Shown: piece after piece, positions 20,324 to 27,709 of the stretch | Numbering within the stretch: position 1 is the first letter of the stretch | How the letters are laid out: every line of letters starts with the position of its first letter | From: Nanoarchaeota archaeon | Lineage (GTDB): Archaea; EX4484-52; LFW-46 | Direction: 5' to 3' | DNA length: 35,374 nt | Assembly (NCBI GenBank): GCA_018897155.1 | Contig: JAHILE010000050.1 | Coordinates: 1 to 35,374, forward strand | The notes under the pieces: generated by a model | Told to the model about the DNA's origin: nothing | The model's database searches: none | The model's input: only the letters and a program-made list of their open reading frames with translations | Position numbers and translations under genes: made by a program

Positions 20324-20355
20324 ATATTTTCTTAAATGGCGCGCTTCGATTCAAT

Positions 20356-20394
20356 GCCAATCGAGTCCAGCAATAGCAGGTTCCTCTCGAAATG
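20356..20394 (+). repeat. 39-nt copy of a 23S rRNA segment outside the rRNA operon
   Basis: 38 of 39 bases equal positions 25174-25212 of the 23S gene in this window (single difference at 20371, C versus A), in sense orientation. The flanks are unrelated on both sides. The segment corresponds to domain II of 23S, the conserved stretch containing ATAGCAGGTTCCTCTCGAAA. It lies in the 5' region of the P-loop kinase gene, upstream of the chosen start at 20468, although the frame is open through it. Confidence 0.9.
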
Positions 20395-21615: not shown

Positions 21616-22243
21616 ATTCCGGTTGATCCTGCCGGAGATCACCGCTATTAGAGTTCCACTAACCCATGCGAGTTCCTGGGTAAAACCAGAGCGAACGGCT
21701 GAGTAACACGTAGTTAACATCCCTTTAGGTGGCGAATAACCTTGGGAAACTGAGATGAATACGCCATAGTCAATTATGCCTGGAACGGTTTATTGACGAA
21801 AGCTTCGGCGCCTAAAGATTGGACTGCGGAGGATTAGGTCGATGTTAGGGTAATGACCTGACATGCCAATAATCCTTAGGGGCCATGAAAGTGGTAGCCT
21901 CCAGATGGATTCTGAGACACGAATCCAGGCCCTATGGGGCGCAGCAGGGGGGAAAACTCCGCAATGCACGAAAGTGTGACGGGGGAACTCTAAGTGCCAG
22001 CACACTGTGTTGGCTTTTCATTAGTCCAAATCGCTAGTGGAATAAGTGGGGGGTAAGACCGTTGCCAGCCGCCGCGGTAATAACGGCTCCACAAGTGGTG
22101 ATCACGTATATTGGGTCTAAAGCATTCGTAGCCGGTTTGTTAAGTCTTCTGTGAAATCTGATAGAAAACTATCAGGCGTGCAGGAGATACTGGCAAGCTT
22201 GGGACCGGGAGGAGCCTGGAGTACTTTTAGGGTAGGGGTAAAA

Positions 22244-22292
22244 TTTCGCAAAGCAAGCTTTGCTGTATTGCAAATTGCTTCGCAATTTACAA
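22244..22292 (+). other. 16S intron 1, 49 nt, in the 690 loop
   Basis: The conserved GGGGTAAAAT-CCTGTAATCC is interrupted. Candidate BHB: core GTAA (22238-22241)/TTAC (22287-22290), bulges AAT (22242-22244) and AAT (22291-22293). The inner stem GCAAAGCAA/TTGCTTCGC has one mismatch and extra unpaired bases next to the core, so the motif is relaxed. Cutting AA|T on both sides restores GTAAAATCCTG. Confidence 0.75.
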
Positions 22293-22389
22293 TCCTGTAA
22301 TCCTAAAGGGACTACCTGTGGCGAAGGCGCCAGGCTAGAACGGATCCGACGGTGAGGAATGAAAGCGAGGGGAGCAAAGGGGATTAGAT

Positions 22390-22432
22390 TTCGCAACTAG
22401 CGTTGCTCATTTATTCGCTAGCGCGACTAAAT
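22390..22432 (+). other. 16S intron 2, 43 nt, in the 790 loop
   Basis: GGATTAGAT-ACCCCCGTAG is interrupted. BHB is complete: core TTAG (22384-22387)/CTAA (22427-22430), bulges ATT (22388-22390) and ATA (22431-22433), inner stem TCGC/GCGA continued by CTAGCG/CGCTAG. Cleavage after the second base of each bulge gives exactly GGATTAGATACCCCC. Confidence 0.88.
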
Positions 22433-22546
22433 ACCCCCGTAGTCCTCGCTGTAAACGATGCCCGCTTGGTATTGGAAGTTGCTAGACTTCTTCCAGTGCC
22501 GTAGGGAAGCCATTGAGCGGGCCACCTGGGAAGTACAGTCGCAAGG

Positions 22547-22577
<31 letters not shown>

Positions 22578-22715
22578 ACAAGGGGTGCGGTCTGCGGTTC
22601 AATTGGACTCAACGCCGGGAACCTCACCAGGGGTGACAGCAGTATGATGGTCAGTCTGAAGGGCTTACCTGACGCGCTGAGAGGTATTGCATGGCCGTCG
22701 TCAGCTCGTGCCGCG

Positions 22716-22810
22716 AGAGCTTTTACTAAGCCTTTTTTTGAGTTTCTAAGAAACTCAAAAAGCTTGGAAATTCGCAAGAATTTCCATGATCTTAAGAAAG
22801 GCTCCGGTAA
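22716..22810 (+). other. 16S intron 3, 95 nt, with hairpin-GCTT-hairpin unit
   Basis: BHB: core GCCG (22710-22713)/CGGT (22805-22808), bulges CGA (22714-22716) and AAA (22809-22811), inner stem GAGCTTTT/AAAGGCTC (8 pairs, one G-U). Splicing gives GTGCCGCGAGGTGTCC, equal in length to the archaeal consensus GTACCGTGAGGCGTCC. The outer helix is poor. Inside is a unit at 22735-22789: TTTTTGAGTTTC hairpin, GCTT, GGAAATTC-GCAA-GAATTTCC hairpin, ATGA. Confidence 0.87.
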
Positions 22811-22823
22811 AGGTGTCCTGTTA

Positions 22824-22974
22824 ACAGGTCGTGGTGCAGCAAAAATGACATCACCATGGAAGCTTCAACACCCAAAATAGTGTATATCAAGAAAAATAAA
22901 AAATAAGCAAGAGAGTAAACGCGTATACCTAATAAGGGTTTGGATTAATTATCGAAGCTTTTAACTTGACAGAT
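22824..22974 (+). other. 16S intron 4, 151 nt
   Basis: BHB: core CTGT (22818-22821)/ACAG (22969-22972), bulges TAA (22822-22824) and ATA (22973-22975), inner CAGG/CTTG. Splicing gives CCTGTTAAGTCAGG, exactly the archaeal consensus hairpin. The exon between introns 3 and 4 (22811-22823) is only 13 nt. The intron is AT-rich and has no ORF large enough for an endonuclease; AAGCTT occurs twice. Confidence 0.87.
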
Positions 22975-23418
22975 AGTCAGGTAACGAGCGAGACCCACGC
23001 CGTATGTTGCCAACTGTTTCTTCGGAAGCGGCGCACTCATGCGGGACTGCCCGTGCTAAATGGGAGGAAGGAGTGGTCAACGGTAGGTCAGTATGGTCCG
23101 AATCCCCTGGGCTACACGCGGGCGCCAATGGCAAGGACAATAGGATGCAACTCCGAAAGGAGGAGCTAATCCCTGAACCCTTGTCTCAGTACAGATTGAG
23201 GGTTGCAACTCACCCTCATGACGCCGGAATCCCTAGTAGGCGAATGTTAGCATCTTTCGTCGAATACGTCCCCGCTCCTTGCACACACCGCCCATCAAAC
23301 CATTTGAATCGAGTTTGGATGATGCCCTGCCCTGTGGTAGGTTAGAATCCGAATTTGGTAAGAAGGGTTAAGTTGTAACAAGGTAGCCCTACCGGAAGGT
23401 GGGGCTGGATCACCTCCA

Positions 23419-23627
23419 AGCCGTCTGACAAATAATTGTCAGACACAGAGTTATCAGTCGCTTTTTTGAGTTCGTAAGAACTCAAAAAGCTTGAAAATTC
23501 GCAAGGATTTTCATGACACGCGACTAATCAAGAGTTTCGCCTCTTTCAAATTCGCAAGAATTTGAAAGGCTTGAAAATCTTCGGATTTTTAAGATCTCAA
23601 CTAAAAATGGATTTCAAAGAAAATAAC
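23419..23627 (+). repeat. 16S-tRNA spacer with two hairpin-GCTT-hairpin units
   Basis: A 9-bp hairpin GTCTGACAA/TTGTCAGAC follows 16S. Unit A (23463-23516): TTTTTGAGTTC/GAACTCAAAAA, GCTT, GAAAATTC-GCAA-GGATTTTC, ATGA, enclosed by AGTCGC/GCGACT. The 16S processing stem arm ATCAAGAGTTTCGCCT is at 23527-23542. Unit B (23543-23590): CTTTCAAATTC-GCAA-GAATTTGAAAG, GCTT, GAAAATC-TTCG-GATTTTT. Loops are GNRA or UUCG tetraloops in three of the four hairpins. Confidence 0.8.
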
Positions 23628-23734
23628 GGGCTCTTAGATCAGCTGGTAGATCGCTGCCCTTGCACAGCCCAGCGCAAATTATCGATGCGGCTCGCGAAAG
23701 GCAGAGGCCGCGCGTTCGAATCGCGCAGAGTCCA
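23628..23734 (+). tRNA. tRNA-Ala (UGC) with intron
   Basis: Acceptor GGGCTCT/AGAGTCC contains the G3-U70 pair, the alanine identity element; discriminator A at 23734. D stem GATC/GATC, anticodon stem CTGCC/GGCAG, anticodon TGC at 23661-23663, T stem GCGCG/CGCGC with TTCGAAT loop. The anticodon loop is interrupted by 34 nt (23665-23698, or shifted by one). Core pairing TTGC/GCGA is present but the bulges are irregular. Mature length is about 73. CCA is not encoded. Location between 16S and 23S is common in archaea. Confidence 0.93.
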
Positions 23735-23881
23735 TTTTTTGTTTGCATTCGCCAAAAGTATTGGCAAAACAAAAAAGCCGAGAGCAACGCGGTTCATAGT
23801 TCATAAGTCGTTGCGAACGGATTTTTCGCCATTAAGTAACGTATTTGACGAAAACCGTATTGAGTTAGCAAAGATGATTTT

Positions 23882-24336: not shown

Positions 24337-26851
24337 TTTGTATGTATGCACCAAGCCACGTAGTGGATGACTTGGCTCAAGAACCGATGAAGGGCGCAAC
24401 AAGTTGCGATAAGCCGTGTGTAGGCGCAAGTAGCCTTTGATGCACGGATTCCTGAATCAGATTATCTGGCCGAAAGGCACTCGGAAACGAGAGGGAACGC
24501 TGGAAATTGAATCATCTTAGTACCGGCAGGAAAAGAAATCAATTGAGATGCTGTTAGTAAGGGCGACCGAAAGCAGCACAGGCCAAGCCGAATCTTCTGC
24601 AGAAATGCAGTCGAGATGTAGCCTAGGCGACATTACCTTCGTACAATAGCTGAAGTGGGCTGGAAAGCCTCTGCCAAAGAGAGTGAAAGCCTCGTAAGCG
24701 AAATTGTGAAAGGTATAGCCTAGAAAGAGTAGTGTAAGTTGAGATTCTTGCATGAAGACGGGGGTCAGATGCCTCCAAGCCTAAACATAACTTGAGTCCG
24801 ATAGAGAACTTAGTACGGCGACGGAAAGTTGAAAAGCAGCCGTAACAGGCGCTGAAAAGAGTCTGAAACTATGTGGTAATAGTCTGTCATGGCATGAAAG
24901 TTCGCAAGAACAGTGTCATGGCGTGCGTTTCGAAAAAAGAGGTAGGGAGTGTATTTAAGTGGCAAGGTTAACTCAAAGAGGGAGCCTAAGGGAAACCAAA
25001 TGTCCGCAACCCGCAAGGGCGAGGGGCGTCGTGTGAAAGCGCGAGAAGTCACTTGAGTATGACCTGAATCTGGACGATCTATTCCAGGGCAGAATGAAGC
25101 ACTTCGAAAGGAGTGTGGAGGTTCGAATCCGGTTGTGGAAACCCTTCGGGTGACCTTGGAATAGGGGTGAAAAGCCAATCGAGTCCAGAAATAGCAGGTT
25201 CCTCTCGAAATGGGCCATAGCCCAGCCTGGAGCGAGGAAGATGCTTGTGTAGAGCTACTGATTAGGGGTTTAGGTTCCGAAAGGGATCGACTCCTTGTCA
25301 AACTCCGAAGCGAGTATCACTGTAGACCTCCGGAGTGAGTGTATTTGGGTAAGCTAAATATGCTAGAGGGAAACAACCCTGACGAAAGTTAAGGCCCTAA
25401 AATATATGCTAAGTGTGACTAAGGTTGTTCTGGTTCTCAGACAGTAGGGATGTAGGCTTAGAAGCAGCCACCATCTAAGCAACGCGTAACAGCGGACCTA
25501 CCGAGAATCAGGGCGCCGTAAATGGACGGGGCTCAAGCATATTGCCGACACTTTCGCATACTCTTCGTTAGAGAGTACATGGGTAGAGAGGCGTAGTGCG
25601 TGGGTAGAAGTAGGGCTGTAAGGTCCTATGGACCGCGCAATAATGAGAATCCTACCAGTAGTAATAGTAAAAAGTAGAGCGAACATCTCTACCGCCGTAA
25701 GGGCCAGGGTTTCTTGGCAATGTTCGTCAGCCAAGAGTTAGCCGATCCTAACGCAAACCCTAACTGGAGTTTGCGGAAAGGGAAGCAGGTAAATATTCCT
25801 GCGCTATAGATATACATGTGGCAACACTAGATTGATTTCTGACACTTTGAGATAAGTTGACATGAACCATCGTTCACGTTAAGGTATGAAGTCCGGGAAG
25901 GAGCGTAATGCTGAGAACCGGATGAAGTGCTGAAGGTCTGCTGTATGGTGGATTCGACCGAATCTTGGAGTCCATGAAAAGGGAATCAACCGGATTATCT
26001 ATAATCGTACCGAGAACCATCACTGGTGTCCCTCGGTTAATAACCAACGGTGCTTCGGGACAAATCCAACTTAAGGAACTCGGCAAATTAGCCCCGTACG
26101 TTCGCAAGAAGGGGTGTCCATTGCCATGTCCTTGAGACATGATCAGTGGATCTCAGTAATAAGGGGGTTCCGACTGTTTAACAAAAACATAACTGGTTGC
26201 TAAGCCGAAAGGCCTTGTATAACCGGTGACTCTTGCCCACTACTGGTATCTGAAACTCCGGTTCAACGGAGCTAAAGACCAGCCAAGGGCGGTCGTAACT
26301 ATGACGATCTTAAGGTAGCGTAATCCCTTGTCGATTAATTGTCGACCCGCATGAAAAGAGGCACGAGATCCCCACTGTCTTAAGTTGGAACCCGGTGAAC
26401 CTGACGTTTTGGTGCATAGTCCAAAGACTTCCAACGGGAAGCGAAGACCCCGTGGAGCTTCACTGCAGTCTGTGATTGATGCACGTTTCTGGATGTATAG
26501 CGTAAGTGGGAGGCGCCGAAGTTTGTCCTGCGGGACAGATGGAGCCGACGATGTAACACCACTCATTTGGAGATTTGCGTCTTACCCGAAAGGGGACATT
26601 TATAGATAGGCAGTTTGGCTGGGGCGGCACACTCCTAACAACTTATCAGGAGTGACCTATGGTGTCCTCAGGCGGAACGGAAACCCGCCGTAGAGTTCAA
26701 AAGCAAAAGGACGCCTGATAGGATTCTGAACAACGAGGAATCCTGCCACGAAAGTGTGGTTTAGCGAACCCTTGTGTCCCTCCATCTGAGGGCCAAGGAT
26801 GACAGAAAAGCTACCCCGGGGATAACTGAGTCGTCTCCTGCGAGAGTTCAT

Positions 26852-27218
26852 TGGCAAATGTGGAAGAAATTCTACATAGCTGATCTCTTGTATTTACAAA
26901 CCTGAAAAGGTTTGGAAAGCTTGAAATTGCATCGCAATTTCAAGATATGACTCTGGTCTTCCCTTATTTCTCTGTTTTCGCAAAATGCGTAACGTTGAAG
27001 TTTGAGGACAAATAAACAGATAAATACATACAACAGATATAGATGCAATTTCATGCCGAAAGGCTTTTGAAATGCCTAATAATCCGGCAAGGATTTTGAG
27101 GAACTAAAGGAGTCCTCAAATCATGCCGCTTTCGCGGCAAGCTTTTGGGCGTAACCCAAAAAGCCTAGAGCAAGCAAAGCTTGCGAAAGGATTTTTAGGA
27201 TTAAGCATCTTCAGATAG
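26852..27218 (+). other. About 367-nt insertion in 23S near the peptidyl transferase centre
   Basis: The conserved sequence CGAGAGTTCAT-ATCGACCAGG (between helices 89 and 90, about E. coli 2475-2480) is split. The insert contains no sizeable ORF; it is a chain of hairpins: CAAACCT-GAAA-AGGTTTG then GCTT then GAAATTGC/GCAATTTC (26897-26941), and TGCCGC/GCGGCA then GCTT then TTGGG/CCCAA (27124-27160), plus GCAAGC/GCTTGC. I could not derive a BHB at the borders, so splicing is unproven. Confidence 0.75.
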
Positions 27219-27490
27219 ATCGACCAGGAGGCTTGCTACTTCGCTGTCGGCTCTTCCTAACCTGGCTGTGCATAAGCAGCCAAGGGTGCGGGTGTTCACC
27301 GATTAAAAGGGATCGTGAGCTGGGTTCAATACGTCGCGAGACAGTATGGTTGCTATCTGTTGGAAGTGTTTGCATCTGAGGGCAAGGTCCGGAGAGTACG
27401 AAAGGAACTCCAGGCCGTAGCCAATAGTGAATCAGTGATCCGACAGGGTCTCTGAATAGCCACGCTATTCTGGATAAGAGCTGAAAGCAT

Positions 27491-27569
27491 ATTTGCGTTT
27501 TCGCAAATATCACTGAGCGCAAGCTTAAGTTGATATTTGCGTAGGGTACATGCCCTGCGCGAAGCTGAT
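27491..27569 (+). other. 79-nt insertion in 23S domain VI
   Basis: The consensus CTGAAAGCAT-CTAAGCTCGAAGCC is interrupted after GCAT (27487-27490). A relaxed BHB is possible: core AGC (27486-27488)/GCT (27564-27566), bulges ATA and GAT, inner TTTGCG/CGCGAA. It competes with a perfect hairpin ATATTTGCG/CGCAAATAT. A GCAAGCTT linker and a second hairpin GCGTAGGG/CCCTGCGC follow. Confidence 0.7.
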
Positions 27570-27709
27570 CTAAGCTCGAAGCCACGCCCAAAAAGAGATG
27601 CAATTGGCTCCCGTAGAAGACGGGTTCGATAGACTGGAGGTGTAAGTGGAGCAATCCATTCAGCCAACCAGCACTAACCGCCATAAAAATGCATACATAC
27701 AAACTTAGA

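Follow-up and report, generated by a model that had tools for sequence, protein, structure and literature searches.

The sole 16S rRNA gene found in a 1.43-Mb archaeal genome is interrupted by two inserts of 95 and 151 nt, each bounded by a BHB core (a 4-bp helix between two 3-nt bulges) and separated from each other by only 13 nt of rRNA. These inserts are very probably two ordinary archaeal BHB introns that are excised, with the exons rejoined around them. As far as kinship tables show, the host is outside the Thermoproteales; it belongs to a small archaeal phylum. The window analyzed here is 35,374 nt long and constitutes one entire contig (G000:C50), on which the 16S gene (21616–23418, plus strand) is followed by a tRNA-Ala gene and then by the 23S gene (24339–27697). 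The 16S gene matched all of the RF01959 profile (positions 1–1478 of 1478, 1338 bits) and measures 1803 nt versus the roughly 1465 nt expected. Alignment with the 16S genes of 12 relatives and E. coli placed four inserts in it, after E. coli positions ~696, 793, 1079, and 1092, in the universally conserved core of the genome's single SSU copy. Excision of all four left a 1465-nt 16S, about the length of the relatives' genes, with a profile score of 1459 bits.

Intron 1 occupies positions 22716–22810 on the plus strand, after E. coli 1079, and intron 2 positions 22824–22974 on the plus strand, after E. coli 1092. Between them lies the exon AGGTGTCCTGTTA (22811–22823, plus strand), the limits of which are the two BHB cut sites. 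We take the position of intron 1 to be the apical GCGA loop of helix 36 (GCC-GCGA-GGU) and that of intron 2 to be the apical loop of helix 37 (CCUG-UUAAGU-CAGG), the exon presumably comprising the 3′ half of helix 36, a linker, and the 5′ half of helix 37. The alignment located inserts of these lengths around a 13-nt exon where the original prediction had placed them, and both are absent from the 16S of E. coli and the 12 relatives, the one exception being L011, in which the second site contains an insert of 45 nt. Removal of both introns yields GTGCCGCGAGGTGTCCTGTTAAGTCAGG, which is uninterrupted in three relatives (G031, G023, and G021; loci L005, L013, and L014/L116), and the profile match, broken into parts of 953 and 424 bits when the introns are present, becomes a single full-length match of 1416 bits, in agreement with the restoration of the consensus that had been proposed.

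The BHB geometry was scored in every splice register, with two 3-nt bulges, a cut after the second nucleotide of each bulge, 4 bp between the bulges (the helix H), and then an inner helix. In BHB 1, the 5′ strand (22710–22724, plus strand) consists of GCCG, the bulge CG/A (the slash marking the cut), and the inner helix strand GAGCUUUU, while the 3′ strand (22797–22811, plus strand) consists of AAAGGCUC, CGGU, and the bulge AA/A, giving an H of GCCG with CGGU and an inner helix of 8 bp that fits the register 22716–22810 only. In BHB 2, the 5′ strand (22818–22829, plus strand) is CUGU, the bulge UA/A, and CAGGU, and the 3′ strand (22964–22975, plus strand) is ACUUG, ACAG, and the bulge AU/A, giving an H of CUGU with ACAG and an inner helix of 5 bp that fits 22824–22974 only. 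The cores and their correctly placed bulges are thus as claimed, and at both sites, the sole fitting register is one that restores the consensus. When each insert was subjected to 20,000 dinucleotide shuffles and cores equal or better in a consensus-restoring register were counted, none was obtained for the 1079 insert (a frequency <5 × 10⁻⁵) and the frequency for the 1092 insert was 7 × 10⁻⁴. The outer exon–exon helix of the full hBHBh′ motif was not found at BHB 1 or BHB 2, where 1 bp is continuous and 3 of 6 positions are pairable, and it was short as well in the other 16S introns scored. This outer helix defines the full hBHBh′ form and not the BHB intron as such, of which relaxed forms without it exist. 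Introns 1 and 2 thus have a BHB core whose inner helix is strong but fall short of the full hBHBh′ motif; the marks of a BHB intron found here are an interrupted conserved rRNA site, a 4-bp helix between 3-nt bulges, a consensus restored on removal, and a genome that encodes both a splicing endonuclease and RtcB.

Two further inserts of the same 16S gene, at 22390–22432 and 22244–22292, had been overlooked in the earlier reading. The former is a 43-nt intron after E. coli 793 (plus strand) with a BHB of 4 bp in H and an inner helix of 4, and a 46-nt intron at 793 in L005 has the same H. The latter is a 49-nt insert after about E. coli 696 (plus strand), a site at which L011 also has an insert; a convincing BHB was not found in it, the fit being at chance level. 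Because the shuffle frequencies at 1079 and 1092, together with 7.5 × 10⁻⁴ at 793, stand against 0.15 at 696, three of the four 16S inserts (793, 1079, and 1092) are BHB introns on the strength of their sequence and the 696 insert is unproven, although it too is probably spliced. In the spacer, the tRNA-Ala(UGC) gene (23628–23734) carries a 34-nt intron in its anticodon loop (23665–23698, plus strand) with BHB geometry, in which 3 of 4 H pairs form and the inner helix is 4 bp. This gene was located by ARAGORN with introns allowed, which labels it Ser(CGA); without introns, the program misses it. Two inserts in the 23S gene, 26850–27216 (367 nt) and about 27490–27569 (about 80 nt), are absent from the relatives G003 and G009, and a clean strict BHB was not found in either.

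Both 16S introns around the 13-nt exon are too short for a homing endonuclease. Intron 1 contains two hairpins (22735–22790, plus strand), and because the second (22758–22790) is a dispersed hairpin repeat that occurs elsewhere in this genome (three other copies) and in its congener G001 (five copies), at 91–100% identity over about 32 nt, intron 1 may have grown by gain of a dispersed element. Dispersed short repeats of several families shared by the two genomes were observed at 22758–22790, 23463–23523, 23772–23835, and 27158–27195, positions that fall in intron 1 of the 16S gene, in the rRNA spacer, and in a 23S insert. Separately, a kinase-like ORF that precedes the rRNA genes has at its beginning a 42-nt stretch (20353–20394) that is 95% identical to 25171–25212 in the 23S gene.

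The 13-nt exon had been thought to supply half of each BHB. This is correct for BHB 2, where it provides the 5′ side (CUGU plus the bulge), but not for BHB 1, to which it contributes the last bulge nucleotide only, the central helix being formed by the upstream exon and intron 1. Because the two cores have no nucleotide in common and six exon nucleotides (22812–22817) are free between them, pairing forces no order of removal, and an order enforced by the exon through shared BHB pairs was rejected. Folding of the naked pre-rRNA favors other structures, with a probability of about zero for BHB 2. Relative to the free fold, the energy cost is 0.2 kcal/mol when BHB 1 is enforced, 5.8 for BHB 2, and 10.3 for both together, and with one intron removed, the cost of the remaining BHB is nearly the same (1.3 and 6.1 kcal/mol). 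These costs, obtained with a simple energy model, suggest that the introns are independent, with some preference for splicing one at a time.

The genome encodes one RtcB and one homologue of the PF01974 splicing endonuclease, a 285-residue protein with N- and C-terminal domains (L031:1474–2331 on G000:C48, minus strand). This homologue has alanine at the position of M. jannaschii K156 and retains the tyrosine and histidine. The same position is alanine in 22 and serine in 5 of the 27 homologues found in the phylum, one of the five serine homologues being read from the sequence of a truncated frame; among 70 homologues from other archaea, it is lysine in 55, alanine in 11, and threonine in 4. 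The tyrosine and histidine are always kept in the homologues that lack the lysine. The catalytic lysine has been called essential in the ARMAN-2 paper, and laboratory enzymes in which it is mutated to alanine are inactive (PMC12397907). Because the lineages concerned carry BHB introns in essential RNAs, we think that the lysine-less endonucleases retain activity through an altered active site. That the BHB introns described here, including the pair around the 13-nt exon, are spliced by an endonuclease in which another residue has taken over from the canonical catalytic lysine is a serious possibility, to which we give slightly less than even weight; the substitute is perhaps the loop lysine of the motif NPYK.

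The splicing proposed here would begin in the pre-rRNA with the introns interrupting the apical loops of two small 16S hairpins, h36 and h37, where the end of each intron would replace the 3′ strand of the hairpin and pair with the upstream exon strand to form the 4-bp BHB core. Both bulges would then be cut by the splicing endonuclease and the exons ligated by RtcB, with release of the introns. The 13-nt exon would be ligated to both of its neighbors, most likely in two separate events, with intron 1 leaving first or in no fixed order. Splicing is favored by the reuse of these sites in other archaea, namely 1079 in L103, 1091/1092 in L011 and L092, and 793 in six loci that include L005 and the window, and by the presence, within the operon, of a tRNA-Ala intron that also shows BHB geometry. 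Weighing against it are the 1-bp outer helices, the folds of the naked RNA, and the alanine in place of the catalytic lysine in the sole endonuclease homologue.

The inserts could be cut out and the exons left unjoined, giving a fragmented 16S whose pieces are kept together by base pairing, in the manner of the intervening sequences of some bacterial rRNAs, and an exon this short would indeed be hard to hold for ligation. We regard this outcome as improbable, given that a BHB geometry and an exactly restored consensus point to splicing, that RtcB is encoded in the genome, and that a free 13-mer with ~4 bp to its neighbor would leave the ribosome. Less probable still is a 16S pseudogene or a chimera created in assembly. 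Chimeric joins would not yield BHB cores in the right register, and this gene, the sole SSU gene, is full-length, has tRNA-Ala and 23S downstream, and is conserved apart from its inserts; what speaks for an artifact is that the assembly consists of 62 contigs and that an SSU match was not found in the congener G001, whose DNA matches to the rRNA region are short repeats. Retention of the inserts in mature 16S as expansion segments is very improbable, since the two inserts break up the loops of h36 and h37, and the 793 insert does the same to the conserved 790 loop, while the inserts of relatives at 793 and 1091/1092 are BHB introns too. Group I introns are present in some archaeal rRNA genes (PMC6125680), but at 95 and 151 nt, these inserts are too short for group I or group II introns, no catalytic intron model of either kind matched in the window, where the Rfam matches at Rfam's thresholds were to rRNA only, and the chance that they are such introns is negligible.

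Splicing of the two introns would mean that short-exon 16S splicing occurs in a further archaeal phylum and would add a second case of an intron at 1079, a site absent from the 2015 catalogue. The pair would offer a compact natural substrate for the handling of a 13-nt exon by endonuclease and ligase, although smaller natural cases exist, and the endonuclease variant poses a sharper question, that of an active-site mechanism without the usual lysine. Where primers or 16S surveys span these sites, the lineage would go undetected or be misread.

Among known 16S introns, those of the Thermoproteales enclose exons of 7 nt (901/908) and 8 nt (1205/1213) (Jay and Inskeep 2015, PMC4496867), and P. 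oguniense has both the 1205 and 1213 introns (PMC4496867). The window and the 16S genes retrieved from other archaea gave a count of 49 strict BHB introns; L103 shares site 1079 and L092 shares site 1092, and the exons between strict BHB introns measured 8 nt in L107 (1205/1213), 9 nt in L106 (1057/1066), 13 nt in L103 (1066/1079), and 14 nt in L103 (908/922). The apparent 909/916 intron pairs of L101 and L106 were left out of the count because, as aligned, each pair's second insert had no BHB. Strict BHB introns number nine in the 16S gene of L103 (G228) and eight in that of L106 (G313), where the smallest exons measure 13 and 9 nt, respectively, and the 45-nt intron at 1091 in L011 has a perfect core, as does the 46-nt 793 intron of L005. 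A 13-nt exon between introns is not exceptional, with cases of 7 to 9 nt known; the two flanking BHB introns of the original interpretation stand, and the arrangement itself was already known from the published 7- and 8-nt exons.

The Thermoproteales pairs resemble the present one in having BHB introns at conserved 16S sites with a tiny exon between them (8 and 7 nt), and locus 1093 of their catalogue adjoins site 1092. They differ in that the phylum here is another, the exon is 13 nt, site 1079 is outside their 13 loci, and neither intron of our pair contains a homing endonuclease gene. The 16S introns of Micrarchaeota (ARMAN-2, Mia14; PMC5498576) likewise have BHB cores in a small-genome archaeon, but the introns of this type surveyed (L099, L100, and L108–L110) are about 520 nt long and lie after position 1101, unlike those described here. 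L103 of G228 also has a BHB intron at exactly 1079 with a 13-nt exon beside it, although the partner intron there lies upstream, at 1066 and not at 1092, in a gene with many more such introns.
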